From IMG/VR virus record IMGVR_UViG_3300046740_000479, positions 1 to 35,431 of that record: DNA of 35,431 nt; one strand, 5' to 3'. Each line of letters begins with the position of its first letter. Within the stretch, counting starts at the first letter, position 1. Below the pieces are notes generated by a model that worked only from the letters and a program-made list of their open reading frames with translations, did not search any database and was not told the origin of the DNA. Below are positions 891 to 31,038 of this stretch, piece by piece. This DNA comes from a virus. A program made the translations under genes and the position numbers.

Positions 891-2177
891 TCACGCCACC
901 ACCTCGAGGAACATGCCGAGCCGGTCGGCGATCAGGTCGGCGTTGTCGGGGTAGAGCTCGATGCCGGTGGCGTCGCGGCCGCAGCCGTGGGCGACGGCGA
1001 GGGTGGTGCCGCTGCCGGCGAACGGGTCGAGGACGTGGCCGTTGCGCCAGGCGTCGTGCCCGCAATCAGTCCAGCCGAGGGTCACGTTTTCGGCGCTGGT
1101 CATCTGCCCTAGCTGAGCGGCACGCGAACCGCTGACTCTGCCGTGCTCGTCCGTGCTCATGTGTCCGACGCGAGCCCGGGCGGCCGCGTACTCGGGTGTC
1201 TGTCCAGTGATCCTCCGCGACGGTTCCCCGCACACGGTGCACACCCGTAGTGGGCAGAGCATTTCGACGAGTCGTTTGGCGAGGGTGGGGGGCCAGGTTG
1301 CGTAGTGGGCGCCGGGGTAGGGCTGGGTGGGCAGGACGAGGGTGGCGTGTCCGGTGGGGTCGTCGTCTTCCCACCAGTCAAGCGGCGGCGCACCGGCGGG
1401 ATGACTCTCTGTCCGATCAACACCGGAGTCGGCGCGTTTGCTGTTACCAGACTTCGACGCCGAGTAACCGTTAGCGGAGTATCGCATGTCGTGTTCGTAT
1501 GAGTTGCCCGGAGCACGTACGGCGTCCAAATCGAACCATCGTTTCGCGGAGGTGCAGGCGATGGTGATGTAGGAGGTCGCCGGGCGGACCTTGTCGCCGA
1601 GGGCGCCTACCGGCGGGTTGGGGCGTGCCCAGACGACGACGTTGCGGACCCGCCACCGTCCCGCCGGGCTGTCCGGTCCGTTGCGGTGCAGGACGTTGTG
1701 GCCGTAGGCGAGTGACAGCATGTACGCCTCGGGGATACCGGCGAGCGACTTGGCGAGCGGCCACGCTTCACCGTCTCTGCGTTGTCCGTTGCTGATTCCT
1801 GCGCTCTGAATCGTGCGACCGTCGGCGAGCTTCACGCGGTGCTCTTTGCGGGCCGCTGAGCCCTTGTATGCCGGTTGTCCTTCTCGTAGCCCGTTCTCGT
1901 TGTAGTCCCCACCGGCGCCACCGGAGCCGCTGTACGTGTCGCCGAGTTCGATGGCGATGGAGCCGTGCGGGGCGAGGACACGGCGAAACTGTGCGGTCAG
2001 CTCGAGCAGGGCGTCGATGAACGCGGCCGGGTTCGCCTCGGATCCCATCTCGGCGTCGTCGCCTCCGTATTTGCGTAGGGCGAGGAACGGCGGCGAACAG
2101 ATGACGGCGTCCACCGTGCCGTCGGGTATCTCGCCGATGCGTTCGTTGACGTCGCCGACGAGGAGGCGGGCGGTCAT
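891..2177 (-). CDS. DNA methyltransferase, beta class (N4-cytosine or N6-adenine)
   Basis: 428 residues. Motif IV SPPF lies near the N-terminus (residues 28-31) and the SAM-binding motif I DPFAGSGTT near the C-terminus (384-392), the order of beta-class amino-methyltransferases. A CTVCGEP segment at about 310 with a later Cys/His pair looks like a zinc insertion in the target-recognition part. No restriction endonuclease gene lies beside it, so it is probably an orphan phage enzyme that protects phage DNA from host restriction or marks its own DNA. SPPF favours N4-cytosine methylation in this family but does not prove it. The ATG at 2177 overlaps the preceding stop as ATGA. Confidence 0.9.
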   Translation of the reverse strand: MTARLLVGDVNERIGEIPDGTVDAVICSPPFLALRKYGGDDAEMGSEANPAAFIDALLELTAQFRRVLAPHGSIAIELGDTYSGSGGAGGDYNENGLREGQPAYKGSAARKEHRVKLADGRTIQSAGISNGQRRDGEAWPLAKSLAGIPEAYMLSLAYGHNVLHRNGPDSPAGRWRVRNVVVWARPNPPVGALGDKVRPATSYITIACTSAKRWFDLDAVRAPGNSYEHDMRYSANGYSASKSGNSKRADSGVDRTESHPAGAPPLDWWEDDDPTGHATLVLPTQPYPGAHYATWPPTLAKRLVEMLCPLRVCTVCGEPSRRITGQTPEYAAARARVGHMSTDEHGRVSGSRAAQLGQMTSAENVTLGWTDCGHDAWRNGHVLDPFAGSGTTLAVAHGCGRDATGIELYPDNADLIADRLGMFLEVVA

Positions 2178-14179: not shown

Positions 14180-16123
14180 TCAGGCGAACCGGCTGAAATC
14201 CCATTTGCCGTACGTGGCGTTGTCGAAAATCATGTAGCTGGCACCACCACCGGACGGGTCGTCGGTTTCTGACGGCGACAAGAAGTAGGTCACCGTGTAC
14301 TCGCCGTCGGCGGTGGCGCGGTGCGAAATACCTTCGATGAGTACGTCGTGGGAGATCGGCGCGCCGACACCTTGCGGCCGATGTTTGACGGTGACCTTGT
14401 CGGTCAGTTGGAGATCGCGGACGAGCGGAAACAGGTTCGAAGGATCGCGGCGCGGTTTGACCTCGAGGCTGGTGACCCGCAGACGTGGCTGGGCGAAGTT
14501 GGCGAGGCGCCTATCTGCCAAGGCGCGCATCGCGGCCTCGTCCACGAGGAGGAGGTCATCGAGTTGTTCGCCGACTTCGAGATGATCCGTTATCGAGGTC
14601 GCGTCGCTCGCGGTGTAGCTCGTCCCGTTGATACTCGTCGCCACGATCTTGTTGCGTACGAACGTCGTCGAGTAGTCGAACGCGATGCCCGAGTAGCGGG
14701 CTTCGACACTCAAGGCGTTGGCATCACCGAACGTCGCCGACGATGCCAAGGTGATCGTGTAGTTCTGGTCGCGGAACACGGCGATCCCGGTCTTGTCGAT
14801 GTAGAACCGGCCTTGTTCGCTGCGTTCGACCTTCTTGATGAAGTCGAGAGCCGACTGTCCTCTGAGATCCCCGGTCACGACCGCCGCGGTTCCCGCCGCG
14901 ATGGTCCGGTCAGCAGTCGGCCATCCGGCGATATCGAGGGCTTTCGTGACGATCGTCCCCGACGCGCTGCCGGTACCAAACCCGAAAGGCGCCGTGTCGG
15001 CACCATACAGACCGGCAAAGCTGTGGACGGCTACTCGGGCAGCGCTCAACGCGGTTCCGTAAACCGACAACTCGTCGAGGACGCCCGTGAAGGCCGAGAT
15101 GCCGGTGGCAGTCAACGCTCTCGGCAACACGATCGATGATTCACCGGGATTCGGAGGTGTCCCGCTGACACTGCCGCTGGTGCTGACACCGTCGAAGTAG
15201 AGCGTTATCGCCGTCGAGGTGAACGTGGCGACGATGTGGACGTTGTAGCCGATGTGTCCGACACTGACCGGTTTGAACGCCGACATCGTGAAGGTCGAAG
15301 CGTTGTTGCGGTACTCGACAAATACGCCACCGCCGACACCGCCGATGATCTGGAACCAGATCCGTTTGTCCAGATCGGCGAGCGGTGGGGTGCTCAACTG
15401 GAACGGGATCACCGCGTTGGTCGGGGTGATCGTGTCCCCCGGTGTCTCGTACCAGAACTCGATGGTGAACGGGAAGTTCGGCCACGGCACGTTCTGTTTG
15501 CTGAGCGCGTCGCCGGTGGCGAAGAACGTGGCCTTGCCGGAGCCGAGCGGGATTCCGTCGACAACCGCAGTCGATGCCCCGGACAGGCCGCCGGCGTGAC
15601 CGGGTGCCGAATCGTAGAACGACTCGCCGTTGGCGTCGCCGAGCCGGTACCACATGAGCGGGTTGTCCTGGCGTACTTCGTATTCGTAGAGCGAGACGAG
15701 TTTGACGTCTTGGAGGACAGAGAACCCGTCGACGGCGTTCACGGTGACCGTGGCGTCGCTGGTGTTGAGATCGTAGGTTTGGGGCCAGCCGAGCAGATAG
15801 CCGGTGTACTGCGGGACGAACACGCTACCGACGTACGACGTCGAGATCCGGACCCGTTTGCGGGGTAACAGTTTGCCGTAATACGGGCCGGAGGCGTGGT
15901 TCGGGTCGTAGTCACGGTCACGGTTCCCGAGTACGAACGTGGCGGTGCCCGGCTGGTAGTCGTCGAAGTTCGTGGCGCGTCCGGTGTGGATCTCGACGGA
16001 TCGCACATCGGTCGAGACGTCGGTCCACACGGTGGCGCCCAACGCGACCGATGGTGCAGAGTCGAAGGCGATCTCGAGTTTGATCCGGTAGCCGGCGAAC
16101 CCGAGAACCCAACTGCTAGCCAT
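14180..16123 (-). CDS. Tail-tip (Tal/Dit-like) protein with inserted LamG domain
   Basis: 647 residues, TGATG overlap with the tape measure. Residues 1-145 resemble a siphovirus tail-associated protein (NFDDYQPGTATFVLGNRDRD). Residues about 155-375 form a concanavalin/LamG-like domain (LMWYRLGDANGE, FTIEFWYETP, ITLYFDGV, LDELSVYG), a carbohydrate-binding fold. The C-terminal 270 residues return to the tail-protein fold (QGRFYIDKTGIAVF, VTYFLSPSE). The LamG insertion could bind host surface glycans. Confidence 0.8.
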   Translation of the reverse strand: MASSWVLGFAGYRIKLEIAFDSAPSVALGATVWTDVSTDVRSVEIHTGRATNFDDYQPGTATFVLGNRDRDYDPNHASGPYYGKLLPRKRVRISTSYVGSVFVPQYTGYLLGWPQTYDLNTSDATVTVNAVDGFSVLQDVKLVSLYEYEVRQDNPLMWYRLGDANGESFYDSAPGHAGGLSGASTAVVDGIPLGSGKATFFATGDALSKQNVPWPNFPFTIEFWYETPGDTITPTNAVIPFQLSTPPLADLDKRIWFQIIGGVGGGVFVEYRNNASTFTMSAFKPVSVGHIGYNVHIVATFTSTAITLYFDGVSTSGSVSGTPPNPGESSIVLPRALTATGISAFTGVLDELSVYGTALSAARVAVHSFAGLYGADTAPFGFGTGSASGTIVTKALDIAGWPTADRTIAAGTAAVVTGDLRGQSALDFIKKVERSEQGRFYIDKTGIAVFRDQNYTITLASSATFGDANALSVEARYSGIAFDYSTTFVRNKIVATSINGTSYTASDATSITDHLEVGEQLDDLLLVDEAAMRALADRRLANFAQPRLRVTSLEVKPRRDPSNLFPLVRDLQLTDKVTVKHRPQGVGAPISHDVLIEGISHRATADGEYTVTYFLSPSETDDPSGGGASYMIFDNATYGKWDFSRFA

Positions 16124-18903
16124 CAGGCAGCCTGGCCGCCGGCTTTGAGAAAGTCGCGGCGGGCCTGTTCGATGATCCGACCGAACGCGATGGTGTCGGT
16201 ACCCGGCGCCACGTTGATCGTCCAGCTGTAACTCGTCGTACCACCACGCGACCACGACGTCGGAGCAGACGCAGAGTTCGTCGGCGCGCCGACCGGCACC
16301 ACCCGTTCCCCGCCGTGCACGAGGGCGAGCATCGATTGACCGACCGGTCCGGGGACCGTTCCACCCGTCGCGAAATGAGGTACACCGCCACCGGGAGCAA
16401 CCCGCGCGCCGTACCCTGCCGCACCACCACCAGGGACGCCGTTGTAAATGTTCAACGACGCCACCGCCGCGTCCGCGGCGGCAGCCTGATCCTTCAACTG
16501 CTGTATGTGCGCGTCCACCGCGACCGCCAGAGCAGAACCGGGAGCCAACGTCTTCTCGATGTTCGTCAGTGAGGTGACCTGCGCGTCGAGCGAGTCACGC
16601 ACGTTCCACGAGAGCCCGGCCTCTTTCTTCAGGATCTCCTGCTCGGCGGCGTGCGTCGACGCGCTGTCGTTGATCGCCCGTTGCACGTCCTCGTAGGCGG
16701 TCTTCTTGTCCTGCTCCGAATGGATCACCGTGCGCGTCGTCGCGTCGTAGTCCTTCTGCGCGTCCGTCACGTCCTGCAACGCTGCCGCCTGCTCGTCCGC
16801 GCTGGCGGAAGAACCCTTGATCACCTTGTCGTAGGCCATCTGCGCCTCGGTGAGCGAGATGGTGGCCTTGCGGCGCTCGAGGTCCGGTGCGCGGCCGGGA
16901 TGCTGAATCGAGTCGGTGTAGGCAAGCTGCGCCTCAGCCAACGCGATCTGCGCTTTCTCCTTGTCGAGGTCGGACGCCGGCGTCACCTTCAACGAGTCGT
17001 TGTACTTCTCCTTCGCCTTCGTCAACCGGTCCTGGGCTTTGGCGACGTCGTCGAGGTTGGGCGGGGTTCCACGCAGCATCTCGTTGTACTTGGCGATGGC
17101 GTCCGACACCCGTTGGTCGGCGTCGACCGACGACAGGTGAGCCGAGTTGGCGTCGAGCGCGGCAGAAACCTCGTCGTCGATGCCCTTGCGGAGTTTGTCG
17201 ACGGCGTCGAGCTGATCCTGGTAGCTCTTGACGAGCCGGTCGGTTTGGTCGATCCGGTCTTGGTCGACCTTGTTCTGAGCCGCCGTAGCGTCGGTCAGGT
17301 GGTTGACGTAGTTCACGCCTTCCTTGTCGGCTTCGGCGACGAGGTTCAAGTTGTCGGACAGCGGGCCGGAGATCTGAGCCATGTAGGTGAGGTTCGCGGC
17401 GGCTTGTCTCGCCGAGTAGGACAGCCCGTCCGCTGCGGTGGCGGCACCATCGGTTCCGTCGGCCAACGCTTTCGTCGCCGCCGTGGCGAGATCCGCGCCG
17501 GAGGCGAGATCGGCGAGAACTTTCGGGGTCAATCCGAACGAGTCAACGAAATGTTGCGCCGATTTGTTACCGAGCTCGGCTTCACCGCCGATGGCGCCGA
17601 GCGCGTCGATCGTCTGCTGATAGTCCTGCGGCGATGTCTGCTGGATCTTGCCGAGTGCTTCTTTCAGGGTCGCCAGGTTTATCGCCGCTTCACTCGCCGA
17701 AAGGGTGACGTGGCCGAGGCCGTTCTTCAAACCGTCGAACGCCTGCGACGTCAAACCTTTGGAACTTTCGAGACTGTTCGTCAACTGAACCAACGCGTTG
17801 ATACTGTCGGCCGTCTCGTCGACCGTGCCCCGAGCGGCGTGCGTAGAAACGACGAACTGGTCCATCGCCGTCTTCGCCTTGCCGGTGTTCTGTGTCACCG
17901 CGTCGAGTGCCTGCAAAGCGGTGATCGCGATACCGATCGCGCCGATACCGATCGCCGCGCCTTTGGCGGCGGTCCCGAAGCTGTTCAGTGCACCGGTGGC
18001 GTCGGTGAACCGGTCCCGCATCTTGATCGCCTGCCCGGCGACGAGGGAGATACCACCGACGAGTCCGACGGCGGCGGTACCCAACGCAAGGAACTGGCCG
18101 ACCGCACCGTTGGTCACCTTGTCGGCTTTTCCGATGGCGTCGACGGCGGCGCCGAGTCCGTCGGCGAACCGGCCGATGAGTGGGGCGGCACCTTTACCGA
18201 TGGCGATACCGAGGCCGTCGACCGAGTCGCGTAGATGGTCAAGTTCGTCCCGATACGTTTTCGCGGCGTTGACAGCGCTGTCATCGACGATTTTGGCGCC
18301 GGCAACATCGGCGAGTCTGGCTGTCAGATCGGCGGAACCCTGGCCGATGATGTTCGCCATCTGCTGCCAGCCACGACCGAGAAGAGCGACGGCGGTGGTC
18401 TGACGTAGGGCCGGGTCTTGTATGGCGTTAAGCGAATCGACGACCTTTAGGAACGTGGCGTTGACGTCCACAGCGCCGCTCTTCGTCTTGACGATCGTCG
18501 CGCCGATCTGGTTGAACAGTTGCGGGGTTGTCTCGGCCGCCTTGTTCAGTTTCCCGAGCGCCAGTTCGACGGTCGATGTTTCGACGCCGAGATCTTTCGA
18601 CACTTCGATCCACCGTGACGCCGCCTCGACGGACAGGCCGGTGGCTATCGACATGTGGTTGGCGGCGAGCGCGAGGTCTTCGAAGTTGCCGGCGAGTTTC
18701 GTCAGACCGGTCCCGGCTGCCGCGGCGACGGCGATGCCGGCAGTTCCGACCTTCGTGAGCCCGGTGGAGATCTTGTCGAGCGACGCCGTGGCTTTCGATT
18801 GTGCTTTGGTGGCGGCGTCGCCGAGATGGTCGAGCCCGGCGATCGCGTCTTTCGGGTCGGCGTCGAGGACCAGTCGAAACTTCTTGACGAAATCGCCGGC
18901 CAT
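16123..18903 (-). CDS. Tape measure protein
   Basis: 926 residues, mostly alpha-helical, alanine- and lysine-rich. The N-terminus (MAGDFVKKFRLVLDADPKDA) and alternating hydrophobic segments near residues 270-340 are typical of siphovirus tape measures. A long charged coiled coil spans about 540-770 and a Gly-rich end carries FATGGTVPGPVGQSMLALVH, the usual tape-measure C-terminal signature. The protein sets tail length and is ejected with DNA; by the rule of about 1.5 angstrom per residue the tail would be near 140 nm. No peptidoglycan hydrolase motif is evident. Confidence 0.92.
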   Translation of the reverse strand: MAGDFVKKFRLVLDADPKDAIAGLDHLGDAATKAQSKATASLDKISTGLTKVGTAGIAVAAAAGTGLTKLAGNFEDLALAANHMSIATGLSVEAASRWIEVSKDLGVETSTVELALGKLNKAAETTPQLFNQIGATIVKTKSGAVDVNATFLKVVDSLNAIQDPALRQTTAVALLGRGWQQMANIIGQGSADLTARLADVAGAKIVDDSAVNAAKTYRDELDHLRDSVDGLGIAIGKGAAPLIGRFADGLGAAVDAIGKADKVTNGAVGQFLALGTAAVGLVGGISLVAGQAIKMRDRFTDATGALNSFGTAAKGAAIGIGAIGIAITALQALDAVTQNTGKAKTAMDQFVVSTHAARGTVDETADSINALVQLTNSLESSKGLTSQAFDGLKNGLGHVTLSASEAAINLATLKEALGKIQQTSPQDYQQTIDALGAIGGEAELGNKSAQHFVDSFGLTPKVLADLASGADLATAATKALADGTDGAATAADGLSYSARQAAANLTYMAQISGPLSDNLNLVAEADKEGVNYVNHLTDATAAQNKVDQDRIDQTDRLVKSYQDQLDAVDKLRKGIDDEVSAALDANSAHLSSVDADQRVSDAIAKYNEMLRGTPPNLDDVAKAQDRLTKAKEKYNDSLKVTPASDLDKEKAQIALAEAQLAYTDSIQHPGRAPDLERRKATISLTEAQMAYDKVIKGSSASADEQAAALQDVTDAQKDYDATTRTVIHSEQDKKTAYEDVQRAINDSASTHAAEQEILKKEAGLSWNVRDSLDAQVTSLTNIEKTLAPGSALAVAVDAHIQQLKDQAAAADAAVASLNIYNGVPGGGAAGYGARVAPGGGVPHFATGGTVPGPVGQSMLALVHGGERVVPVGAPTNSASAPTSWSRGGTTSYSWTINVAPGTDTIAFGRIIEQARRDFLKAGGQAA

Positions 18904-19827: not shown

Positions 19828-20229
19828 CTAGCCGACCCGGATGATCGACGACGCCGCCACCCAGTTCGAGCTCGTCGTCACCGCCGAGGAGACAGCGCCG
19901 GCGGTCGAGAAGTCGGGGAACACCGTCCCGAAGAAGTAGGTGCCGGGCGCCTGCGAAATGTTCGGGTACAGATAGAACTTGCGGGCGACGCCATCGGCGG
20001 CGGCCGTGTAGGCCTGCTGGGTGGCGTCGTCGAAGAACCCGGTGAACGTCCCCGACGCGTCGGGGAGGCCGACGACGTACGCCTTGTTCGTGTCACCGAA
20101 CGAGGTGACGTCCTGTTTGTCGGTGACGGCGTTGAACGTCCACGCCGACTGGAACGCGACCGCCTCAGCCGTACCGGCCGACGTGATCGCCATGTAGACG
20201 CGGCCTCGAGCACCGTGTTCTCTTGCCAT
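19828..20229 (-). CDS. Major tail tube protein
   Basis: 133 residues from an ATG with AGGAGG 6 bases upstream, one of the strongest ribosome sites in the window and expected for an abundant virion protein. Beta-rich sequence (VAFQSAWTFNAVTDKQDVTS, TFTGFFDDATQQAY, GTYFFGTVFPDFS) fits the siphovirus tube-protein fold. The chaperone gene follows immediately. A glycosyltransferase precedes it directly, so the tube may be a glycosylation substrate. Confidence 0.85.
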   Translation of the reverse strand: MAREHGARGRVYMAITSAGTAEAVAFQSAWTFNAVTDKQDVTSFGDTNKAYVVGLPDASGTFTGFFDDATQQAYTAAADGVARKFYLYPNISQAPGTYFFGTVFPDFSTAGAVSSAVTTSSNWVAASSIIRVG

Positions 20230-20238
20230 ATCGGCCTC

Positions 20239-21258
20239 CTAGGCCTTGTCGATGATGCGGAGTAGCTGGGCGGCATTGTGTGCAAACGTGCGGCGCGCCA
20301 CCGCCACACGAGCCCGGCGGCCGAGCTCGGCCGCACGAGAAGGGTCCGACACCAGCCACCGCAGACGGCTTTCCAGCTCTTCGGCGGTGTCGTAGGTCGG
20401 GAGAAACGGAAACAGCTCATCGGACTCGGGGCGAGGGTCACGCACGAACGGCAGCCCACACGCCGCCATCTCGATCTCACGCGGCCCACAGGCGACACCG
20501 TCGGCGTGGGCGCCGTCGTGGTGTTCCTGCCGGTAACAGTTGAACCCGGCCACCGACGACCGGTACAGGTCGGCGGTGTCGGTGTTCTCCATGCAGGCCT
20601 GCGGGTCGTCGAGGAGGTACTTGTTCAGGTCGGAATCTTCGGGGAGGTACTGCCAGTTCCCACCCAAGCGCAGATCGAGGCCGGACCAGTCGACCTGCTC
20701 GAGGAGTTCGATACGTGACGGGAACCCGGTCCCACAGAACCCGACACCCGAGCGGGACTGGCTGCCGGGGTAATGGGTGAGCGGGTCGAAGGCGTGACCG
20801 ATGTAATGCGTGTTCGGGTTGACGAGACGGAAAGCGTCGAGGTTCACCGGGTCGTTGACGATGACCGTGTCGAACGCCTCGGCCTGTTTCAGGTGGCGTT
20901 CGTCCTCGTAGGGGGACTCGGTGCAGAGCAGCACCATGTGCATCCCACGGTCCCGCAACCGTTCGACGACGGTCGGGGACACGAAGGTGCCCATGACCAT
21001 GATGACGACGTCGGGCCACCAGAGGAACGCCGAGGAGTAGATCCCGTTGATCGCCATGTGCATCGCCGTTTGCGCGTCGAACGCTTTCGGCATGTCACCG
21101 TTTTCGAGGCTGACGTGCGCGGCACTGTAGAAGTCGAGCCGGTTGTCCAGGTTGAAGTCGGCGACTCCGACACCGGCCTGGCCGAGCCCACGGACCCACC
21201 CGTTGTACACATCCGCGACCGAGTAGTGCGGACCGGGGTGGACCATGAGCACACGCAT
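20239..21258 (-). CDS. CgeB-like glycosyltransferase
   Basis: 339 residues; the ATG follows the previous stop without a gap. The C-terminal half has the GT-B hallmarks of the YkvP/CgeB-type family (EIEMAACGLPFVRD, then a GRRARVAVARRTFAHNAAQL helix). The N-terminal half is a Rossmann-like acceptor domain (MRVLMVHPGPHYSVADVYNG). It should transfer a sugar from a nucleotide-sugar. It ends 9 bases before the major tail gene in a virion operon, so glycosylation of virion proteins is the likely job; modification of host envelope sugars is the alternative. Confidence 0.85.
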   Translation of the reverse strand: MRVLMVHPGPHYSVADVYNGWVRGLGQAGVGVADFNLDNRLDFYSAAHVSLENGDMPKAFDAQTAMHMAINGIYSSAFLWWPDVVIMVMGTFVSPTVVERLRDRGMHMVLLCTESPYEDERHLKQAEAFDTVIVNDPVNLDAFRLVNPNTHYIGHAFDPLTHYPGSQSRSGVGFCGTGFPSRIELLEQVDWSGLDLRLGGNWQYLPEDSDLNKYLLDDPQACMENTDTADLYRSSVAGFNCYRQEHHDGAHADGVACGPREIEMAACGLPFVRDPRPESDELFPFLPTYDTAEELESRLRWLVSDPSRAAELGRRARVAVARRTFAHNAAQLLRIIDKA

Positions 21259-21591
21259 TCAGCTACCCCGACGCTTGATGTCATAACGCATGCCATCAGC
21301 GAGGCCTCTGATCGTGGCGAGATCCTCGAGCAACCTCTTAGCCAGGTCGGCGGTTATCGCATGTGTGTCGGCCTCGTAACGCAGACGGCTGATCTCATCG
21401 AGTGCCCGCACCACTTCGGCGCCCAACCCGTCGCGCCCGACGATCGAGTACAACAGCGGGTAATCCTCACCAATAGGAGGAGGATTAGGGGCACGGTTAA
21501 CTTCTTTCGGAGGATTGCGACTGTCGGGGACGGTCACCTCGATCGAGCCGTAACGTTCGATCTGCTTCTGAATCTCGGCAGGCACACGCAC
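21259..21591 (-). CDS. Unknown protein of the head-tail region
   Basis: 110 residues from a GTG at 21591 that overlaps the upstream stop (TAGTG). A helical C-terminal half (ALDEISRLRYEADTHAITAD) follows a proline-rich middle (PNPPPIGEDYP). Not recognised. Position between head-tail joining genes and a glycosyltransferase suggests a virion or assembly role. Confidence 0.6.
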   Translation of the reverse strand: MRVPAEIQKQIERYGSIEVTVPDSRNPPKEVNRAPNPPPIGEDYPLLYSIVGRDGLGAEVVRALDEISRLRYEADTHAITADLAKRLLEDLATIRGLADGMRYDIKRRGS

Positions 21592-21803
21592 TAGAACCCC
21601 TTGGAAGCGACCGACATCGAGGGAACCTCGTCGGCATCGAGAACATCGACCAGCGCGCTTTCCGGCCACATCGAGCCGGAATGCTTCGTGCGCCAGACGA
21701 CGACGAGATGACGATCCGGCACCGGCTTACAGTTGATGAGCGTGCCGAAATCTCTGACGACGTCACCGGTTTCGAGTTCGGATGCTTTGCGTTGAACCCA
21801 CAT
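21591..21803 (-). CDS. Small protein, possible head-closure protein
   Basis: 70 residues starting MWVQRKASELETGDVVRDFG, with beta strands DRHLVVVWRT and a DVLDADEV end. The small beta-barrel look and its place between tail terminator and major tail genes resemble head-closure or stopper proteins, but a small SH3-like regulator is equally possible. Confidence 0.5.
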   Translation of the reverse strand: MWVQRKASELETGDVVRDFGTLINCKPVPDRHLVVVWRTKHSGSMWPESALVDVLDADEVPSMSVASKGF

Positions 21804-21805
21804 GA

Positions 21806-21907
21806 CTAGCTGTCGGCTTCCTCTTCGACAGTCTCGGCGGCCTCGTCGTCACCCTCCTCGGCGGCCTCTTCGACGACTTCCGGTTCGGTGGTTTCGATCT
21901 CCGACAT
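21806..21907 (-). CDS. Tiny highly acidic protein
   Basis: 33 residues with about half Asp or Glu and no basic residue. GGGAAGGG lies upstream of the ATG. It is one of two tiny charged genes interleaved with the head-tail joining and sugar-modification genes. Function unknown; it may be a flexible partner or DNA mimic. Confidence 0.55.
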   Translation of the reverse strand: MSEIETTEPEVVEEAAEEGDDEAAETVEEEADS

Positions 21908-21909
21908 GG

Positions 21910-22299
21910 TTAGAACCCTTCCCTTCCGATAGTGACGGCAGTTTCGGCGACGAGCGCGTCGATGCCGTCGGCGTAACCGATAGTCCAGTTGACCGGACCG
22001 ACCCGCCCGGCGGCGGCCAGCGCCTCGTCGACGGCGTCGACGACAACGTCCAAACCTTTCTGGGCGTCCTCCGGTACCGAGATCTTCGTCTCGTAGTAGA
22101 CACGCACCGCGAACAGGAACAGCCACTCGGTCGGGTCGAACCCGGTGGCGAAGACCGACACGACCGCCGGCCCGGTTGTCTCGGCGATGGCCGGTTCGTA
22201 ATCGAACACCTGTTGCACCGCTTCGAGAGCGTTTATGGCGTCGACGTCGAGGGCGGCGAACAGGTAGGCGCGGGCATCAGCAAACGACAGGATCGCCAC
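21910..22299 (-). CDS. Putative tail terminator protein
   Basis: 129 residues from a GTG at 22299 with GGAGG 7 bases upstream; the frame is open to 22344 but inside the preceding gene. Alpha/beta sequence (VRVYYETKISVPEDAQKGLD, AVDEALAAAGRVGPVNW) resembles tail terminator/neck proteins that cap the tail tube. It lies between the head-tail connector and major tail gene, the normal place. Confidence 0.6.
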   Translation of the reverse strand: MAILSFADARAYLFAALDVDAINALEAVQQVFDYEPAIAETTGPAVVSVFATGFDPTEWLFLFAVRVYYETKISVPEDAQKGLDVVVDAVDEALAAAGRVGPVNWTIGYADGIDALVAETAVTIGREGF

Positions 22300-22303
22300 C
22301 GGG

Positions 22304-22801
22304 TCACCTCCACGCGACGCAGCGGGTGTCGTCGCCGGCGACATCGACGGCGAACTTCGCCCATTCCTGCTCGGTCAACCAGCCCGTGAGTTCGTCGGAG
22401 GACACGTTGCGGTAATGCTCACCGTCGCGCAACGGTCCACCGTCGACCGCCGAGTGTTCCGCCCGTCCGACACCGGCACACGTCATGATCAACTTCCCGC
22501 CGAGGTGCAGCACGTCGAACGCCTTGGCGAGCAGAGCAGCGGGGTCGGTGTCGTGCTCGAGCACTTCGCAGCAGATGACGACGTCGGCGAGCTGGTCGAC
22601 CATCTCGACCTCACGGAAATCGGCGACCATGTCGACACCGGGCCCGGCTTCGATGTCGATGCCGAGGTATTGGGCGTAGGGGAACAGGCCGCGGACCGAG
22701 CCGTTGACGTTACGGCTGCCGCATTCGACCACGATGCCGGTGGTACCGGAGACATCCTCGCAATGCTCGTCGACATAGAGGAACGCGGCGGTGTGCATCA
22801 C
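22304..22801 (-). CDS. SAM-dependent methyltransferase (type 11-like)
   Basis: 165 residues from a GTG at 22801 (ATG at 22798 also possible). Class I fold: VVECGSRNVNGSVRGLFP is motif I, GIDIEAGPGVDMVAD motif II, DVVICCEVLEHD motif IV/V and LHLGGKLIMTCAG the following strand. Typical substrates are sugars, lipids and small molecules, not DNA. It sits between the connector and tail terminator genes in a region with two glycosyltransferases, so O-methylation of a transferred sugar is plausible. Confidence 0.85.
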   Translation of the reverse strand: MMHTAAFLYVDEHCEDVSGTTGIVVECGSRNVNGSVRGLFPYAQYLGIDIEAGPGVDMVADFREVEMVDQLADVVICCEVLEHDTDPAALLAKAFDVLHLGGKLIMTCAGVGRAEHSAVDGGPLRDGEHYRNVSSDELTGWLTEQEWAKFAVDVAGDDTRCVAWR

Positions 22802-22804
22802 GGC

Positions 22805-23353
22805 TCACAGATAGGCTTCCTGCGCGTAGGGCGCCAACAGTTCGAGCGCCTGCTGCGAGATCGGGGTCACGACCGGCGGTGTGTACGGGTCGTGTTGGGG
22901 GGGGCTGTTCAACCCGAGACGGATCTGCCACAGACGGGCGACGATGATCCGGGCGGCCAGGTTGAACGTCGGCAGCAGCGTCGTGCCCCAACCGGCCGTG
23001 TAGGTCACCGTGTAGTACGGGCCGCGCGAGTAGAACGCCAGATCGAGTTTGCGGCGCACGATCCCCGAGTTCGCATCGATGTCCAGATCGGTGATCGTCA
23101 TGGCCGTCCCCGAGGCGATGTCGACGATCGAGTCGACCGACACGATCGGACGTTCACGTAACGCCAACGTCCGATAGTTGCTCGTCGCCTGAACCCGTTC
23201 GACGACGGTGCGGTTGATGAGCGGCCCGCCGGTGATGTTCTCGATCTGTAGCGTGACGGCGTCGATCATCAGTTGGAGCTCGGCGTCCGACGTGATCACG
23301 CTCGCCGGGATCCGCAACCACGTCTTGATTTCCTCGACGGTGACGATCGCCAT
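22805..23353 (-). CDS. Head-tail connector (gp6-like adaptor)
   Basis: 182 residues. The N-terminus (TVEEIKTWLRIPASVITSDA, then a helix beginning LQLMIDAVTLQIENITG) matches phage gp6-like DNA-packaging/connector proteins, which bind beneath the portal ring. The rest is beta with YYTVTYTAGWG and a helical C-terminus. It follows the capsid gene and the first modification genes. Confidence 0.8.
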   Translation of the reverse strand: MAIVTVEEIKTWLRIPASVITSDAELQLMIDAVTLQIENITGGPLINRTVVERVQATSNYRTLALRERPIVSVDSIVDIASGTAMTITDLDIDANSGIVRRKLDLAFYSRGPYYTVTYTAGWGTTLLPTFNLAARIIVARLWQIRLGLNSPPQHDPYTPPVVTPISQQALELLAPYAQEAYL

Positions 23354-23485
23354 CTAGTCGCCAGGTTTCGACGGCTTCGAGTCCGACTCGGCGGCTTTCC
23401 TGTCTTTCACTTTTCCGGCCGGGCCTTCGTCGATCTCTTCTTCGGCGACCGGGTCGTGGCCTTCGAGTTCGTCGTAGTCACCCAT
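23354..23485 (-). CDS. Tiny charged protein
   Basis: 43 residues, acidic first half (DYDELEGHDPVAEEEIDEG) and lysine/serine-rich second half. It overlaps the glycosyltransferase stop by 8 bases and ends right before the connector start. Likely disordered; function unknown. Confidence 0.55.
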   Translation of the reverse strand: MGDYDELEGHDPVAEEEIDEGPAGKVKDRKAAESDSKPSKPGD

Positions 23486-24488
23486 GATGCGCTCCTGTCT
23501 CGCCTGCGGCGTGTTCGTACGCTGACTCCCACAAACGCCAGCCCTCCTCGATCGTGAATCCCGACGCCTGCTCTTTCGCGGCGGCGCCCATCTCGGCGCG
23601 CATGTCGGCGTCGTTGATCAGATCGGTCAGCCGGCCTTCCCATTCCTGCTCGCTCGAAACGAGGAACCCGGTCTTCCCGTCGACGACGTAGTCGGAGTAC
23701 GGGAGCCGGTCCTGCGCGACGATCGGGATACCGAGCGCACCCATCTCCAACGCCCGCAACCACGTCTTCCCCCGGTTGAACTGGGTGTCTTCCGACGGTG
23801 CGATGGCGATATCGAAATCGATGCCGCGGTAGTAGTCGCCCACGTCGCGTTCCCAAATCGACCAGCGACACTCGCGGCGTACGAGCGGCGAGAAATCGAA
23901 ACCCATGAAGTGCATGTCGACGTCGGGGTGGACCTCGAGCACCCGCCGCAACGGATCGGCGATCGTCACCATGTCGCCGAGGTGGGAGGTGCCACCGGCC
24001 CAACCGATCGTCAGACGGTCGCGGTGCGGACGTTCAAGCTCGAGCAGTCCGGCCTTCACGTGGTTGGGCAGGATGACGATGTTGTCGTTGTACGGGCGGA
24101 TCGTGTCGGCCAGGTGCTCGTTGGTGGTGGTCACCATGTCGCAGAGCCGCAGGCACCGTTTCACCGACTGCCGTAACTGGTCGTTGACGAGGTGCGGCAG
24201 ACCGGACGACGTCGCGTTCAACATGTCGTCGTCGACCTCGTAGACGAGCTTGGTCAATCCGACGAGGCCTTCGAGGAGGCGGGCGCCTTCCTTGCCGGCG
24301 GGCCGTTGGAAGACGAGCACGTCGAGTTGCCCGGCTTCCTGCGGGGTCACACCGGGACCGCCGGGTCGGGCGACACCGACGATGTGATGCGAGTTCTTCT
24401 CCATGTGCTGCGCCGGCAGCCAGCACCGATAGTAAGACGACCCGTCGAACGAGTGAGGGACGACGCCGATCGTGAGGGTTCTCATCAT
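23478..24488 (-). CDS. GT-B glycosyltransferase (GT4-like)
   Basis: 336 residues, ATGA overlap with the preceding methyltransferase. The N-terminus (SFDGSSYYRCWLPAQHMEKN) resembles an acceptor domain and the C-terminal half has GT-B signatures: LTIGWAGGTSHLGDM, then LEMGALGIPIVAQD with a following YVVDGKTGFLV, where an acidic residue and the G-rich loop bind the nucleotide-sugar. It lies one gene after the major capsid gene, so the capsid or a decoration protein is a likely substrate. Confidence 0.88.
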   Translation of the reverse strand: MMRTLTIGVVPHSFDGSSYYRCWLPAQHMEKNSHHIVGVARPGGPGVTPQEAGQLDVLVFQRPAGKEGARLLEGLVGLTKLVYEVDDDMLNATSSGLPHLVNDQLRQSVKRCLRLCDMVTTTNEHLADTIRPYNDNIVILPNHVKAGLLELERPHRDRLTIGWAGGTSHLGDMVTIADPLRRVLEVHPDVDMHFMGFDFSPLVRRECRWSIWERDVGDYYRGIDFDIAIAPSEDTQFNRGKTWLRALEMGALGIPIVAQDRLPYSDYVVDGKTGFLVSSEQEWEGRLTDLINDADMRAEMGAAAKEQASGFTIEEGWRLWESAYEHAAGETGAHHG

Positions 24489-25141
24489 CTCGCCTTCTGA
24501 AACTTCTTGTTCGGGTTGTGATAGGTGAGGGCCTGTTCGCGGCGGTACTGGGCGAGGAGCCGTTCACGGTTCTCGGCCGCCTCGGTACGGGCCTCGGCGC
24601 GGATGACACCGATCCCACCCCATGTCACCGGCCAGGCGACGAGTTCTTCTTTGTCGCCGTCGAGGGTGAACCAGAACCGGTTCACCTCGATGAACGGCAT
24701 CTCGGCGTGGAGACAGATGTCGTGGAACCCGATGACACCACCCGGCCGCACCAGCGGCGAGTAGAGCTCGTAATCGGCTTTGACGCCTTCGTAGGTGTGG
24801 TCGCCGTCGATGAACAGCATGTCGACCGGCGCGCCGTCGAGTTCTTTCACGAGTTGGTCACGGGTGTCGGGATGGTGACTGTCGCCCAGGATGACCGTCA
24901 TGCCGAGATCGTTGACCTGCGGGCCGTCCGGGTAGCCAGGCGGTGGCATGTCGACACCGATGACCCGGGCACCCAACTGGTGCCAGGCCCACAGGGTGCC
25001 ACCGGCGAACGCGCCGACTTCGACGATCGTGTCGAGCGGTTCGAGGTCCATGACGATCGCGAGGTAGGCGGCGAGTTCCTGTTCTTTCTGGATAGCGGAG
25101 TGCTCGCCGATTGCCGTCCTCGCGATCGTCAACGGATGCAT
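24485..25141 (-). CDS. SAM-dependent methyltransferase (Methyltransf_24 / CmcI-like)
   Basis: 218 residues. Class I motifs: TIVEVGAFAGGTLWAWHQLG (motif I), ARVIGVDMP, DMLFIDGDHTYEGVKAD and LVRPGGVIGFHDI. This family acts on sugars and small molecules in glycan and antibiotic pathways. It starts 4 bases after the capsid stop with no clear ribosome site, so it probably depends on ribosomes leaving the capsid gene. It overlaps the glycosyltransferase start, which suggests a joint task. Confidence 0.85.
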   Translation of the reverse strand: MHPLTIARTAIGEHSAIQKEQELAAYLAIVMDLEPLDTIVEVGAFAGGTLWAWHQLGARVIGVDMPPPGYPDGPQVNDLGMTVILGDSHHPDTRDQLVKELDGAPVDMLFIDGDHTYEGVKADYELYSPLVRPGGVIGFHDICLHAEMPFIEVNRFWFTLDGDKEELVAWPVTWGGIGVIRAEARTEAAENRERLLAQYRREQALTYHNPNKKFQKAR

Positions 25142-25145
25142 AGGT

Positions 25146-26567
25146 TCAGCTGATCGTCAGGTTGCGGAACGCCGCCGTCGTGGCGATCTGGCTCGAGGTA
25201 CGCCAGAACATGTACCAGCCGGCCTGACCGGACGGCAGCTGTGAACTGGCGCTGGTGCCCTTGATGAGCGGGTCGTACAACATCGACACACCGACACGGT
25301 CGGCGATGATGAACTGTCCGAAGTCGCCGTAGACGAGCGTGGTCGACGCCGTACCCGACGCCGCCGACGTGCCCGTCGTCGTCGCCGAGAAATCGGAGGC
25401 CTCGTACACCGGCTGACCGAGCAGCGACGGCGGGGTATCCGACGTCATGTTCGCCCAGAAACTGCCGCCGCCGTACTGGTCGATGGCTCGCACCTTGTTC
25501 AGGATGACGATGTTCGCCATGAAACAGGCGCCGGGTGCCTTACGGAACCGGGGTGGCAGGGCCGCTTGCAGGTTGTAGACGTCGGGGATCGACGCCGTAC
25601 CGTTGAACGCCGTACCCGTCGTCGACGGGGCGACGCGCGTACCGGACGTCAGACCGGACTCGATGCCTTGCGGGGCGAGGGTGCCGGAACCGGTCGCGAA
25701 GTACGACGACTCGATGCGGTCCTTCGCGTCGGACAGCAGACCGGGCAACTGGGTACCGAAATCGGTATCGTCCAACGCCTCGTAGGTGCCGAGCACCCAC
25801 GCCGCGAACTTCTTCGGTACCACCTGGATCTGCGCGAAGTCCGACGGTGCCGCATCTGCCGCGGTGGCGGCTTCGGCGACGAGCGCCGCGTTGACACCGG
25901 CCGAGGAGACACCTTGCCAGGCGTTCGAGGTGGTCTGCACGATGCGCGACACCCGCCGGAACGGGTTCGCCGACGACGAGTTGGTGAGCACGATGGTCGG
26001 GTCGAGCACGTACGGGAGCAGGTAGCCGCCCGAGGCGTTCGCCAGACGGATGTCTCGGAACCGGTTGTCTTCACCCGAATCGAGATAGGCGCGGAACGCA
26101 TCCCGATACTCGGGGGAACCGGTGAGCAGGATGTGGCGGGCGATCTGCGGGCTCTGCGCCCGAACGGTGGCCGCTTCGGCGCGGTCGTCGGGGAACTCCC
26201 AGCGCTGCCGCTTCGAATCACCCTCGATCAGATCCATGGCGCGGGCACGGAGCTCGTCGCCCGACACCAGGTTCGAGCGGACACGCTCGAGGTCTTCGAG
26301 CGGGTCACGGTTCGAGCGGACAACGACGGTCGGGCCGGTGCGGGGCTCTTCCCGGTTCTCGGGTTCGGCCGACAGGGTCCGGATGCGGTCCAACTCGGCC
26401 ATCCGCTTGCGTAGCGGCGCGACCGAGGCTTCCAGTTCGGCGTGCTCGTGGATGAGGGTGTCCTGCAAGATGACGTCTTCATCGGTCGGAGATTGGATGT
26501 CGGCGATGGAACGCAGGTCGGCCTGGATCGACCGCATCCGCTCTTCCATCTCTTGAACGGTGCTCAT
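25146..26567 (-). CDS. Major capsid protein, HK97 fold
   Basis: 473 residues with AAGGAG before the ATG. Residues 1 to about 115 form the coiled-coil delta/scaffold domain (EMEERMRSIQADLRSIADIQ), probably removed by the upstream protease. The mature part shows typical HK97 sequence (NASGGYLLPYVLDPTIVLTN, VPKKFAAWVLGTYEALDDTD, SLLGQPVYEASDF, DFGQFIIADRVGVSMLYDP). Order portal-protease-capsid supports it. Confidence 0.93.
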   Translation of the reverse strand: MSTVQEMEERMRSIQADLRSIADIQSPTDEDVILQDTLIHEHAELEASVAPLRKRMAELDRIRTLSAEPENREEPRTGPTVVVRSNRDPLEDLERVRSNLVSGDELRARAMDLIEGDSKRQRWEFPDDRAEAATVRAQSPQIARHILLTGSPEYRDAFRAYLDSGEDNRFRDIRLANASGGYLLPYVLDPTIVLTNSSSANPFRRVSRIVQTTSNAWQGVSSAGVNAALVAEAATAADAAPSDFAQIQVVPKKFAAWVLGTYEALDDTDFGTQLPGLLSDAKDRIESSYFATGSGTLAPQGIESGLTSGTRVAPSTTGTAFNGTASIPDVYNLQAALPPRFRKAPGACFMANIVILNKVRAIDQYGGGSFWANMTSDTPPSLLGQPVYEASDFSATTTGTSAASGTASTTLVYGDFGQFIIADRVGVSMLYDPLIKGTSASSQLPSGQAGWYMFWRTSSQIATTAAFRNLTIS

Positions 26568-27349
26568 GTGGCACTCCTTGTGCGAATGAACTCGGCGTAA
26601 CGCGCCCGTAGTTCTTCTTTGGGTGACCGGACCGAGTGCTCTTCGAGCGGGTCGCCGGTGGCTGGTCCCGAATCGTCGGGAGTGCCGATCTCTGGCGGGT
26701 CGACAGGAGTGCCAGAGCGATACTTCTCCAAAAGCCGCTCGATCTCTTCGAGCGGCAGCGTGTCGAGATAGGCGTTCATCATGGCGAGCGCGCGGACACC
26801 GACGACCTCGGCGCCGGCGTAGACCGGGAACGTCGCCGGACCGAACTCACGTAACGTCGACTCGGTGCGCCGCACCGTCGGCAGATCACCGGAATGGTCG
26901 GCACGGAACCCGCCACGAGGCACCAACGGGTCGGAACGGCGGAACGCACCGGAGAACGAATAAGCGGTGATCGAACCCTCGCGGATCGATTCGAGCACCG
27001 CACGTGCGCGCGGGCTGTCGTGGTAGCGGGTACGGGTGAACAGGCCCCGCTTGTCGGCGCGGATCTCTTCAGGAACACCGATCGGAACCGAATCGACCTC
27101 CGACGGTGTGTGGAACAGCGTCATGCCGTGGTTGAACATCACCGGGATGTTCCACCCACCCTTGGCGCGCCGTGCATGGTCGATGGCCCGGTTGAACGCC
27201 GCCGGGTCGATCTCCTCGATGTATTCACCGTCGGCGTCGCGCACCGGTGCCGGCGTATTGAACACCGTCGCATAGGCGTCGACGGTGCGGCCGTCGCCAC
27301 CGGAACGAACCGAGATGTCCTCGAGGGCGAACGAGCGGGTGTATTCCAT
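26564..27349 (-). CDS. Prohead maturation protease (HK97 family)
   Basis: 261 residues, ATGA overlap with the capsid gene. MEYTRSFALEDISVRSGGDG begins the fold; catalytic histidine fits H74 in VMFNHGM and serine S131 in ITAYSFSGAF. It cleaves the capsid delta domain during head maturation. The C-terminal 60 residues are Pro- and Glu-rich and probably disordered. Confidence 0.9.
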   Translation of the reverse strand: MEYTRSFALEDISVRSGGDGRTVDAYATVFNTPAPVRDADGEYIEEIDPAAFNRAIDHARRAKGGWNIPVMFNHGMTLFHTPSEVDSVPIGVPEEIRADKRGLFTRTRYHDSPRARAVLESIREGSITAYSFSGAFRRSDPLVPRGGFRADHSGDLPTVRRTESTLREFGPATFPVYAGAEVVGVRALAMMNAYLDTLPLEEIERLLEKYRSGTPVDPPEIGTPDDSGPATGDPLEEHSVRSPKEELRARYAEFIRTRSAT

Positions 27350-27352
27350 TGG

Positions 27353-28789
27353 TCATCCTTTCCCGTTCGCCGACGGCGCGCGGGGACGTCCCGTAGCTGA
27401 TGGAGTTGTCGGTATCGACGCCGGCATCGGCATCTTGGAAGCCGGAGTCTGCGGCTTGGTGAGCACCGGCTGAACCCCGGCGGCCTGTCCGAGCTTCGCC
27501 CCGGCCGCGGTGCCGCCGATGGCGTCGGTGATCGTCTCGCGTCCCGTGATACCCGGAGGCGGCGCTTCCGGTGCGGACACCAACAGCGACAGATCACCGG
27601 AGGTCACCGCCGACAGGATCGAATCACGGGTGAACCCGGCCTGCACGAACGTCAGGATCGCCGCCGAGTTCACCTGCGTCACTTGCGCCTTCTCCGTCTC
27701 GGCGGCCTGCAACGCGGCGATATCGGAGGTGTCGTACCAGAGCTGCACGCCCTGCGCCGGCACGTTCGGCACGAGTTTCTGCAACGACGCGCACGCCGAA
27801 CGCCACAACGGCCGCAGGTGCATGTCGGCCAGTTGCCGCATGGCCGTCTCGTACGACTCGCCCGGCTCGGCGTTCCGCAACCCGACGAGAACCGGAGAGA
27901 CACCGGCCGCCGCGCAGATCCGGGTCTCACCGCCGGTCTGCACGTTGCGGTAATCGATGTCGGCCAGCCCGCCACCCATCATCGGATCGGCGCCCTGGTC
28001 GAAGATCAACGGTTTGAACGCGTTGGCGACACCGCCGTACTTCGCCTGGATCCGCTCCATCAACGAGTCGACCGTCTCCGGTTTCAACGGACGCGTGTAC
28101 TTGACGGCGACGATCGGAGAGCCGTGGTCCATGTACATCGACTTGTAGTTCGTCATCGCCGAATCGGCGTTCACGTCGCGCAGCACCGGCGTCAACCACG
28201 ACATGCCCCGGAACTGGGCGACCGGATCAGGGATCGGGGACCAGTGGGCGACCTCGTCGACGGTGAAGAACTGGGCCTTCGATTTCGCCGCCGGATCGGC
28301 CAGCGACGGATCCCAGTCGTAACCGAGCGGCCGCTTGTAGCGCGTCCCGCTCGGCGACACGACAACTTCGGACACGATCGTCACCTCAGCCGACGGCAAC
28401 ACCAGCAACTCGTCGACGGCGACCTTGGCGACGAACGCGTTCCCGGTCAGCGACGACTGCTGTTCCATCCGCGCCCACAGTTCGCCCGCCGTCGCGTTCG
28501 GCCACGGATACTCGAGGATGCGGAGATCCGGGTTCCCGAACAGGCGCTTGTCGACGAGCGAACGAAACTTGAACGCCGCCTCGGCGAGCATCATCATCCG
28601 CACCAGGGTGCAGGCGAACACGACACCGTTCGTCTCGTACGCCTGCGTCGCCGCCGCCACCAGCGGCTTGACCGCCGGTTCCTTCTTCGGGTCGTTCGTG
28701 TAGGTCATCAGGACCGCGGCGCCCGACGCCATACCTTCGTAGTAGCCCTGGGCCCGGTAGCGGGCCGTCACACGGTCGAGGAGTCTCAT
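27353..28789 (-). CDS. Portal protein
   Basis: 478 residues, ATGA overlap with the preceding zinc protein. Portal features: FRGMSWLTPVLRDVNADSAM helix pair, PIVAVKYTRPLKPET, the GGLADIDYRNVQTGGETRIC segment and VSPVLVGLRNAEPGESYETA, typical of HK97-type portals. Forms the dodecameric DNA gate in the head. The Pro-rich C-terminal tail (about residue 430 on) is probably disordered. Confidence 0.92.
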   Translation of the reverse strand: MRLLDRVTARYRAQGYYEGMASGAAVLMTYTNDPKKEPAVKPLVAAATQAYETNGVVFACTLVRMMMLAEAAFKFRSLVDKRLFGNPDLRILEYPWPNATAGELWARMEQQSSLTGNAFVAKVAVDELLVLPSAEVTIVSEVVVSPSGTRYKRPLGYDWDPSLADPAAKSKAQFFTVDEVAHWSPIPDPVAQFRGMSWLTPVLRDVNADSAMTNYKSMYMDHGSPIVAVKYTRPLKPETVDSLMERIQAKYGGVANAFKPLIFDQGADPMMGGGLADIDYRNVQTGGETRICAAAGVSPVLVGLRNAEPGESYETAMRQLADMHLRPLWRSACASLQKLVPNVPAQGVQLWYDTSDIAALQAAETEKAQVTQVNSAAILTFVQAGFTRDSILSAVTSGDLSLLVSAPEAPPPGITGRETITDAIGGTAAGAKLGQAAGVQPVLTKPQTPASKMPMPASIPTTPSATGRPRAPSANGKG

Positions 28790-29610: not shown

Positions 29611-31038
29611 TCACCAGACGCCAGGTTCGGCAGACTCGGACTTCAAGAACCCCCACAACGCGAACGACGCCGCCACCAGAGGCGAGATGTCATCGGACGT
29701 ACCGCGACGATCCCACCCCCACGCCTGCCCGATCGGCCGCTGCTTCGCGCCGGCCACCGCCCGACCCAACCGCACATCGGACTGATGCACGATCTGCCGT
29801 TGCGTCACCGCGTCGTAGAAGCCCTCAGCGGCCTGCGCGACGTCGTGCGCCGCCGGGATAGTCAACTCCACGCCAGAACGCTCCAGCAGGCCTAGAGCGG
29901 TGCCTGCCGGCCCGCTGCGATCCACCACCACGGCGAGCGGGTCGTGGCGCTCCACCAACTCGACGAGACGGTCACCGATCCAATCGACCCCCGGCTTGTG
30001 GTCGACGAGCTCCACCATCAACGAACCATCCGACAACCGGCCCGCCGTGGCGATCACACCGAAGGTCCGCTCCGGAGTCGCGTCAGCCGCGAAACACACC
30101 GGCGCCGGCCGCTCCTCCGACGGCGACGCGCACGCCTCCCAGTCGGCGAGCTCGATCACCGAGAACGACTCGTCCGACGGCCAGTCACCGACACCGAGAC
30201 GTTCCGCCGCGAACCCTTCCGTCGACATCGCTGCGCGTTCACGCTCGACGTACTCCGGTGAGATCCGGATACCGAGCGCCGGGTTCGCCACACGCCAGGC
30301 TTCCGGGTCGGCCGGATCGTGCTCGTCCTCCACGGACCATTCGAGATACGTGAGCCCCGCATCGCCACCGGCCAACGCGCGCCGTCGCACCGAAGCCAGA
30401 TGCGACGAGGCCTGACCGATGCCGGCAGTGCCCGTGTACCAGAGCTGCGGATTCCGGACCGCCGACAACGTCGGCAACATCGCCCTGATCGCATCGTCCC
30501 CGAGGATCTGCGCCTCGTCGAACACGATGCAATCCCCGGTGAAGCCCCGACCCGAACCCTTCGACCGGGCCATGAACCGCAACCGGGCACCAGACAACAA
30601 CTCGACCGCCTCGTCGCCGTGCCCCATCGGAATCGACTTCACCCGCTTACGAAGTCGGTCGCAGTTCATTATCAGGTCACGGATACGCAGGAACCCTTCG
30701 CGCGCCGTCTTGAACTCGTGCGCCGAATGGATCACCAGCCGCTCTTTGAGCATGAACAACCCGACGAGCTCACGCGCCATCAACAGTTCGCCCTTACCGT
30801 TCTGACGGGGCACCACCAACCCGACCTCGAACGACGCCCACCTACGACGATCATCCGGTGACTCGGCCAGACCGTGCTCCAAACAGAGCGCCTGCCACGG
30901 GTCGAGCACGAGCCCGACCGACGCGCAGAACTCGACCGCCTCCTGGCCCGACGTCGACGAGTACGGCGGATGCGTCAAGATCCGCGGAGCCTGACTACCC
31001 AGACAGTCGGGCCTCACGTCGGGAAGCAAGCTCGTCAA
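29611..31038 (-). CDS. terL: Terminase large subunit
   Basis: 475 residues from a TTG at 31038 supported by GGGAG 7 bases upstream. ATPase domain: Walker A variant PRQNGKGE (77-84) and Walker B IVFDEA (171-176). Nuclease domain in the second half with acidic residues in VCFAADATPE and AVVVDRSG. It pumps DNA into the prohead through the portal and cuts concatemers. It overlaps the upstream gene by 44 bases. Confidence 0.93.
   Translation of the reverse strand: MTSLLPDVRPDCLGSQAPRILTHPPYSSTSGQEAVEFCASVGLVLDPWQALCLEHGLAESPDDRRRWASFEVGLVVPRQNGKGELLMARELVGLFMLKERLVIHSAHEFKTAREGFLRIRDLIMNCDRLRKRVKSIPMGHGDEAVELLSGARLRFMARSKGSGRGFTGDCIVFDEAQILGDDAIRAMLPTLSAVRNPQLWYTGTAGIGQASSHLASVRRRALAGGDAGLTYLEWSVEDEHDPADPEAWRVANPALGIRISPEYVERERAAMSTEGFAAERLGVGDWPSDESFSVIELADWEACASPSEERPAPVCFAADATPERTFGVIATAGRLSDGSLMVELVDHKPGVDWIGDRLVELVERHDPLAVVVDRSGPAGTALGLLERSGVELTIPAAHDVAQAAEGFYDAVTQRQIVHQSDVRLGRAVAGAKQRPIGQAWGWDRRGTSDDISPLVAASFALWGFLKSESAEPGVW

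Follow-up and report, generated by a model that had tools for sequence, protein, structure and literature searches.

The virus analyzed here, uncultured and known from sequence alone, is likely to encode its own system for virion glycosylation, with a capsid sugar that is probably O-methylated. It is a virus of bacteria, probably of actinobacteria, and the window studied spans an entire IMG/VR viral record (35,431 bases). In the proposed mechanism, a GT4-like glycosyltransferase (GTB) would move a sugar from a host nucleotide-sugar to the capsid protein, or to a sugar already present on the capsid, and a Methyltransf_24-type enzyme (MT24) would O-methylate the capsid sugar using S-adenosylmethionine and a metal ion. 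A CgeB-type glycosyltransferase would glycosylate the tail tube subunit, which is encoded directly after it, and a second methyltransferase (MT11) would most likely act on the glycan too. Every glycosyltransferase gene would travel with the gene of its substrate, and the particle may gain shielding or distinct surface properties. The acceptors, the sugar, the order of the steps and the benefit are those that we infer. Because many related genomes keep the enzymes together with their shell or tail neighbours, the data suggest that phages of this kind coat their particles with sugars, possibly methylated ones. That virion proteins are glycosylated by enzymes encoded beside their substrates had been proposed in a sequence-only reading of this DNA, and the genome comparisons support it, as MT24 and GTB track the capsid and the CgeB-type enzyme tracks the tail tube in very diverged genomes. 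The linkage is strong, yet it is no proof of substrate.

Organization of the late operon

The late operon occupies the minus strand in the order terminase, portal, protease, capsid, MT24, GTB, connector, MT11, a terminator-like gene, two small ORFs, the CgeB-type glycosyltransferase, tail tube, two small genes and tape measure (Table 1). Profile matches agree with the positions first assigned to the four enzymes and to the capsid, connector and tail tube, confirming that observation. The identities of the genes, their fold matches, the conservation of active-site residues and the linkage between genes are all directly observed. As in virion glycosylation of the mycobacteriophage type, the glycosyltransferase genes sit inside the virion structural operon. 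No match was obtained when the window was compared with cultured phages by megablast, and the terminator-like gene had none in family or PHROG profile searches.

Table 1. Genes of the late operon that bear on the proposed glycosylation system.
Gene	Position	Strand	Basis and remarks
Terminase	29611-31038	-	Late operon
Portal	27353-28789	-	Late operon
Protease	26564-27349	-	Late operon
Major capsid protein, HK97 fold; proposed glycan acceptor	25146-26567	-	Phage_capsid 2e-31
MT24, Methyltransf_24/RMNT_CmcI-type, probably metal-dependent sugar O-methyltransferase	24485-25141	-	Methyltransf_24 2e-14, RMNT_CmcI 1.6e-7
GTB, GT4-like glycosyltransferase, GT-B by family	23478-24488	-	Glycos_transf_1 1.7e-8; phrog_7162 glycosyltransferase 5.1e-49
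Head-tail connector/adaptor	22805-23353	-	phrog_442 2.3e-23
MT11, small class I SAM methyltransferase	22304-22801	-	Methyltransf_11 2.5e-6; phrog_32762 8.4e-20; probable start ATG 22798
Tail-terminator-like gene	21910-22299	-	ORF, sequence, position; probable start GTG 22299
CgeB-type glycosyltransferase (Glyco_trans_1_2)	20239-21258	-	Glyco_trans_1_2 2.4e-14
Tail tube protein; proposed acceptor of the CgeB-type enzyme	19828-20229	-	phrog_10528 1.3e-7; structure model
Tape measure	16123-18903	-	Late operon

The genes had been described as coupled by overlaps, which holds for MT24 and GTB (4 bp) and nearly so for the CgeB-type gene, which abuts the stop of the upstream ORF; the other junctions are gaps of 3-124 bp (connector-MT11 3 bp, capsid-MT24 4 bp, CgeB-tail tube 9 bp, GTB-connector 124 bp). 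The start given for the terminator-like gene in the ORF list, 22344, lies inside MT11, and use of the in-frame GTG abolishes that overlap. Since the arrangement of enzymes and virion genes is found again in dozens of diverged relatives, it is far beyond chance.

Phage glucosyltransferases acting on hydroxymethylated bases exist, and the window carries a true N6/N4 DNA methylase (891-2177, minus strand; 4.7e-21), apart from MT24 and MT11. It is nonetheless very improbable that the enzyme set described here serves to hypermodify a base, and this reading was rejected. That methylase is of a different family and distant from the set, and neither MT24 nor GTB matches any DNA-acting family in Pfam or NCBIfam. 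No pyrimidine-hydroxymethylating gene occurs among the families scanned, and the single PHROG label of DNA methyltransferase on MT24 spans only 45 residues.

The methyltransferases

MT24 matches both Methyltransf_24 and RMNT_CmcI (rhamnosyl O-methyltransferase/CmcI) above the Pfam cut-off, and a PDB sequence search with the protein returned MycE (3ssm) as the sole match. Its AlphaFold2 model (pLDDT 88.9) had MycE, MeT1 and SpnK among the first Foldseek matches. In VIA alignments the model reached Z scores of about 15-16.6 with MycE, MeT1, SpnK, MycF and SpnH, 16.5 with TrmR (tRNA) and 14-15 with COMT-like enzymes. By entry titles and general background, the substrates of MycE, SpnK, MycF and SpnH are sugars of macrolides or spinosyns, and that of MeT1 is a mannoside. 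Residues D112, D114, H115, H140 and D141 (DxDH...HD) are invariant in an alignment of 17 homologues, so that the Asp-His...Asp signature of MycE/TylF/RMNT-type enzymes (D112, H115, D141), presumably equivalent to the metal and catalytic residues of MycE, is present in these sequences. In fold and family, MT24 agrees with the sugar O-methyltransferases of this type; its model is best read as a putative sugar O-methyltransferase, the fold by itself being no proof. Its closest structural and family matches make action on DNA, RNA or lipids less likely.

Sugar O-methyltransferases rank at or near the top among the structural matches of the MT24 model, and the closest solved relatives of MT11 are UbiG-like. 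MT11 is present in only 24 of the 80 CgeB loci. Its relatives adjoin glycosyltransferases in the phages KimJongPhill and phiPsal1 and lie near one in S-CBS4, and it is most likely a second glycan-modifying methyltransferase. Since methyltransferases with a class I fold accept a wide range of substrates, an alternative has to be weighed in which the targets of MT24 and MT11 are virion proteins or small molecules instead of sugars, with the glycosyltransferases acting separately. The COMT-like matches to MT24 fall merely 1-2 Z units under MycE, and MT11 has no substrate-specific match. Even so, we regard this alternative as unlikely, given that sugar O-methyltransferases dominate the top-ranked matches of MT24, that MT24 and GTB form a strictly adjacent pair in all 18 loci with both, and that the relatives of MT11 keep the company of glycosyltransferases just described.

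The site behind the capsid gene

Among 54 loci collected as capsid relatives and mapped by tblastn, 30 extend at least 2.5 kb downstream of the capsid gene, and 28 of these 30 hold at least one glycosyltransferase or methyltransferase there. The comparison with related phages that the sequence-only reading had recommended makes the linkage much firmer: MT24 followed by GTB stands behind the capsid gene in all 18 loci holding both (18/18), at capsid identities of 47-97%. In the most distant relatives this site is occupied by different sugar enzymes, including a GT2-like enzyme (L040), a fusion of a GT4 enzyme with an FkbM methyltransferase (L049) and another Methyltransf_11 (L038), and some nearer relatives have an extra GT2 (L008). 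From these differences, the site appears to be one where sugar enzymes are exchanged, as judged by gene content. In the Gordonia phage Eyre, which has a related capsid, nothing lies between capsid and connectors.

The capsid protein contains a Ser/Thr-rich loop at residues 392-410 (DFSATTTGTSAASGTASTT). On average, this loop holds 9.0 Ser or Thr residues in 21 loci with GTB versus 4.0 in 12 loci without it, a contrast confounded by phylogeny, as the two sets separate phylogenetically and the GTB-bearing relatives form a group apart. As a possible sign of the glycan acceptor, it serves as a lead only.

Several further features of this region were observed. The GT4-FkbM-type fusion protein (637 aa) directly follows the capsid gene in distant relatives (L049 3259-5172, as well as L043, L044 and L050). 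In ten relatives (L029 9924-10550, L021, L025 and others) an HNH endonuclease with repeated zinc-finger-like motifs is encoded directly behind the capsid gene, and it could help in moving sugar-enzyme cassettes. Many relatives also have, between GTB and connector, large proteins of 530-750 aa with no convincing family match, which are absent from the window (L021 15610-17541, L024 10517-12334, L029 14473-16077). These are possibly head fibres or decoration proteins, and alternative acceptors of the glycan.

The CgeB-type glycosyltransferase and the tail tube

The CgeB-type enzyme matches Glyco_trans_1_2 at 53.9 bits against a cut-off of 25 and contains the conserved C-terminal GPRExE region. 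Across 126 homologues, E114, P116, Y117, N135, D136, G258, P259, R260, E261 and E263 are kept at 95% or more; since the same charged residues persist in 126 sequences, this conservation argues for a working enzyme. The model of its neighbour, the 133-residue tail tube protein (mean pLDDT 70), had as its best Foldseek matches the tail tubes of monocin (MttP), phage R4C, GTA and lambda (gpV).

A search of viral contigs with the CgeB-type enzyme yielded 151 relatives, of which 80 with 41-99% identity were kept. A tail tube homologue lies downstream in each of the 77 testable loci (77/77); in the remaining three, the contig ends within about 160 bases. In the converse test, loci were picked by tail tube alignment, blind to the enzyme. 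The enzyme stands upstream of the tail tube in 76/79 testable loci among the best 80 of about 330 relatives, there mostly at most 40 bases away, and in 79/79 of a further sample whose ranking used another tail tube (again the best 80 of about 330); the three samples behind these counts partly overlap. In the three exceptions (L271, L287, L292) the capsid gene occupies that place, and no CgeB-type gene was found elsewhere on these fragments. The pair also occurs on two contigs of actinobacterial MAGs (Micromonosporaceae and Propionibacteriaceae), which were found via the tail tube. A search of genome contigs with the CgeB-type enzyme found no relative, so the linkage has been tested on viral contigs and these two MAG contigs. 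Neither protein had a match by tblastn against 50,697 cultured phage records. Distances of the CgeB-type enzyme correlate with those of the tail tube at a Mantel r of 0.82, versus 0.59-0.78 for the other pairs tested; the correlations with TMP (0.78) and the connector (0.70) come fairly close to this, and the conserved gene order can be inherited synteny.

Transfer of a sugar to the tail tube by the CgeB-type enzyme is what we infer from these genomes. Glycolipids of actinobacteria are also substrates of GT4 and GT2 enzymes and of RMNT-type O-methyltransferases, and MT24 does match RMNT_CmcI. The enzymes might then alter glycans of the host surface (wall polysaccharide or glycolipid) at a late stage of infection, blocking superinfection or aiding progeny release, with their place in the virion operon setting the timing only. 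This is quite improbable: a surface modifier need not adjoin one tail-tube family, as the CgeB-type enzyme does in all but three loci of the two samples chosen by tail tube, the nearest arrangements in cultured phages are likewise at the capsid, and no flippase-like partner gene occurs among the families found.

As a candidate glycosylation site, residue T42 of the tail tube was discarded as evidence. The position is Thr in 127 and Ser in 3 of 130 sequences, and its TxFG motif is also found in the distant tail tube of phiPsal1, which has no adjoining CgeB-type gene; the motif is probably structural. As separate observations, the enzyme lies between two tail tube copies in L193 (7553-9479) and L200 (2777-4701), and in the Micromonosporaceae MAG contig (L308 3144-5907) ORFs resembling, by eye, a methyltransferase, a dioxygenase-like and a GT2-like protein precede the connector.

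Implications

A wider generalization can be offered tentatively, as a possibility we hold at somewhat less than even confidence. In a large, almost uncultured and probably actinobacterial siphophage clade, tail-tube glycosylation would be near-obligate, with a single dedicated CgeB-type glycosyltransferase passed on together with a single family of tail tubes. A further set of enzymes, located behind the capsid gene and open to replacement, would produce a capsid glycan bearing O-methyl groups. The sugars on the particle would then count among the core traits of these phages, and evolve. If virion glycosylation of this kind is true, it would be a widespread inherited property of environmental phages, beyond a few mycobacteriophages. 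The system would consist of simple enzyme-substrate pairs, one glycosyltransferase with the tail tube and one glycosyltransferase plus one O-methyltransferase with one capsid protein, testable in E. coli without phage growth. Exchange of such enzymes next to the capsid gene would point to selection acting on the chemistry of the particle surface.

Comparison with known systems

Capsid and tail-tube glycosylation is reported for mycobacteriophages, those of the Corndog type among them (PMC12363180, citing Freeman 2023; PMC11600133). Cluster O mycobacteriophages have an O-methyltransferase and glycosyltransferases encoded between the portal and protease genes, and those who described these phages proposed that the capsid is modified by methyl groups and glycans (PMC4351075). 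The Corndogvirus members of this cluster (Corndog, Firecracker, Dylan) share with the window a Methyltransf_24 O-methyltransferase adjoining glycosyltransferases among the head genes. Firecracker gp33 matches the TylF and Methyltransf_24 profiles, the latter common to MT24, although the Corndogvirus O-methyltransferases align only weakly with MT24 directly. The Corndogvirus set also differs in lying between portal and protease, in having GT2/GT25-like glycosyltransferases and in having no CgeB-type enzyme beside its tail tube.

The Pontimonas phage phiPsal1, which infects an actinobacterium, shares its head backbone with the window, as judged by HMM (TerL, portal, protease, capsid, connector). 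Its capsid and neck genes are separated by those of a group I glycosyltransferase, an MT11 homologue and a GT2, in the order GT-MT-GT. Unlike the window, however, phiPsal1 encodes its methyltransferase on the opposite strand, has no MT24 and no CgeB-type enzyme at its tail tube, and the tube itself is only a distant relative. The closest cultured relatives of GTB (29-31% identity), along with relatives of MT11, occur in the Streptomyces phages Zuko and KimJongPhill. In KimJongPhill the MT11 relative is flanked by glycosyltransferases (GT-MT-GT), but in both phages these genes are found towards the ends of the genome instead of next to the capsid gene, and Zuko also has a UDP-glucose dehydrogenase. 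S-CBS4 shows the order GT-unknown-MT. For the chlorovirus PBCV-1 (A064R/A061L), it has been shown biochemically that viral glycosyltransferases and O-methyltransferases make a methylated capsid glycan (PMC9614988); as a eukaryotic virus with an N-glycan and an unrelated capsid, it is likened by function only.

Methyl capping of a virion sugar had been put forward as a new twist, a claim not supported in that form in view of Firecracker gp33 (Methyltransf_24/TylF), the cluster O proposal and PBCV-1. With phiPsal1 as a further precedent, virion glycosylation with methylation is not categorically new. What is new, judging from the genomes compared, is the near-fixed pairing of a dedicated CgeB-type glycosyltransferase with one tail-tube family, as well as an MT24-GTB pair fixed behind the capsid gene within a variable sugar-enzyme site.
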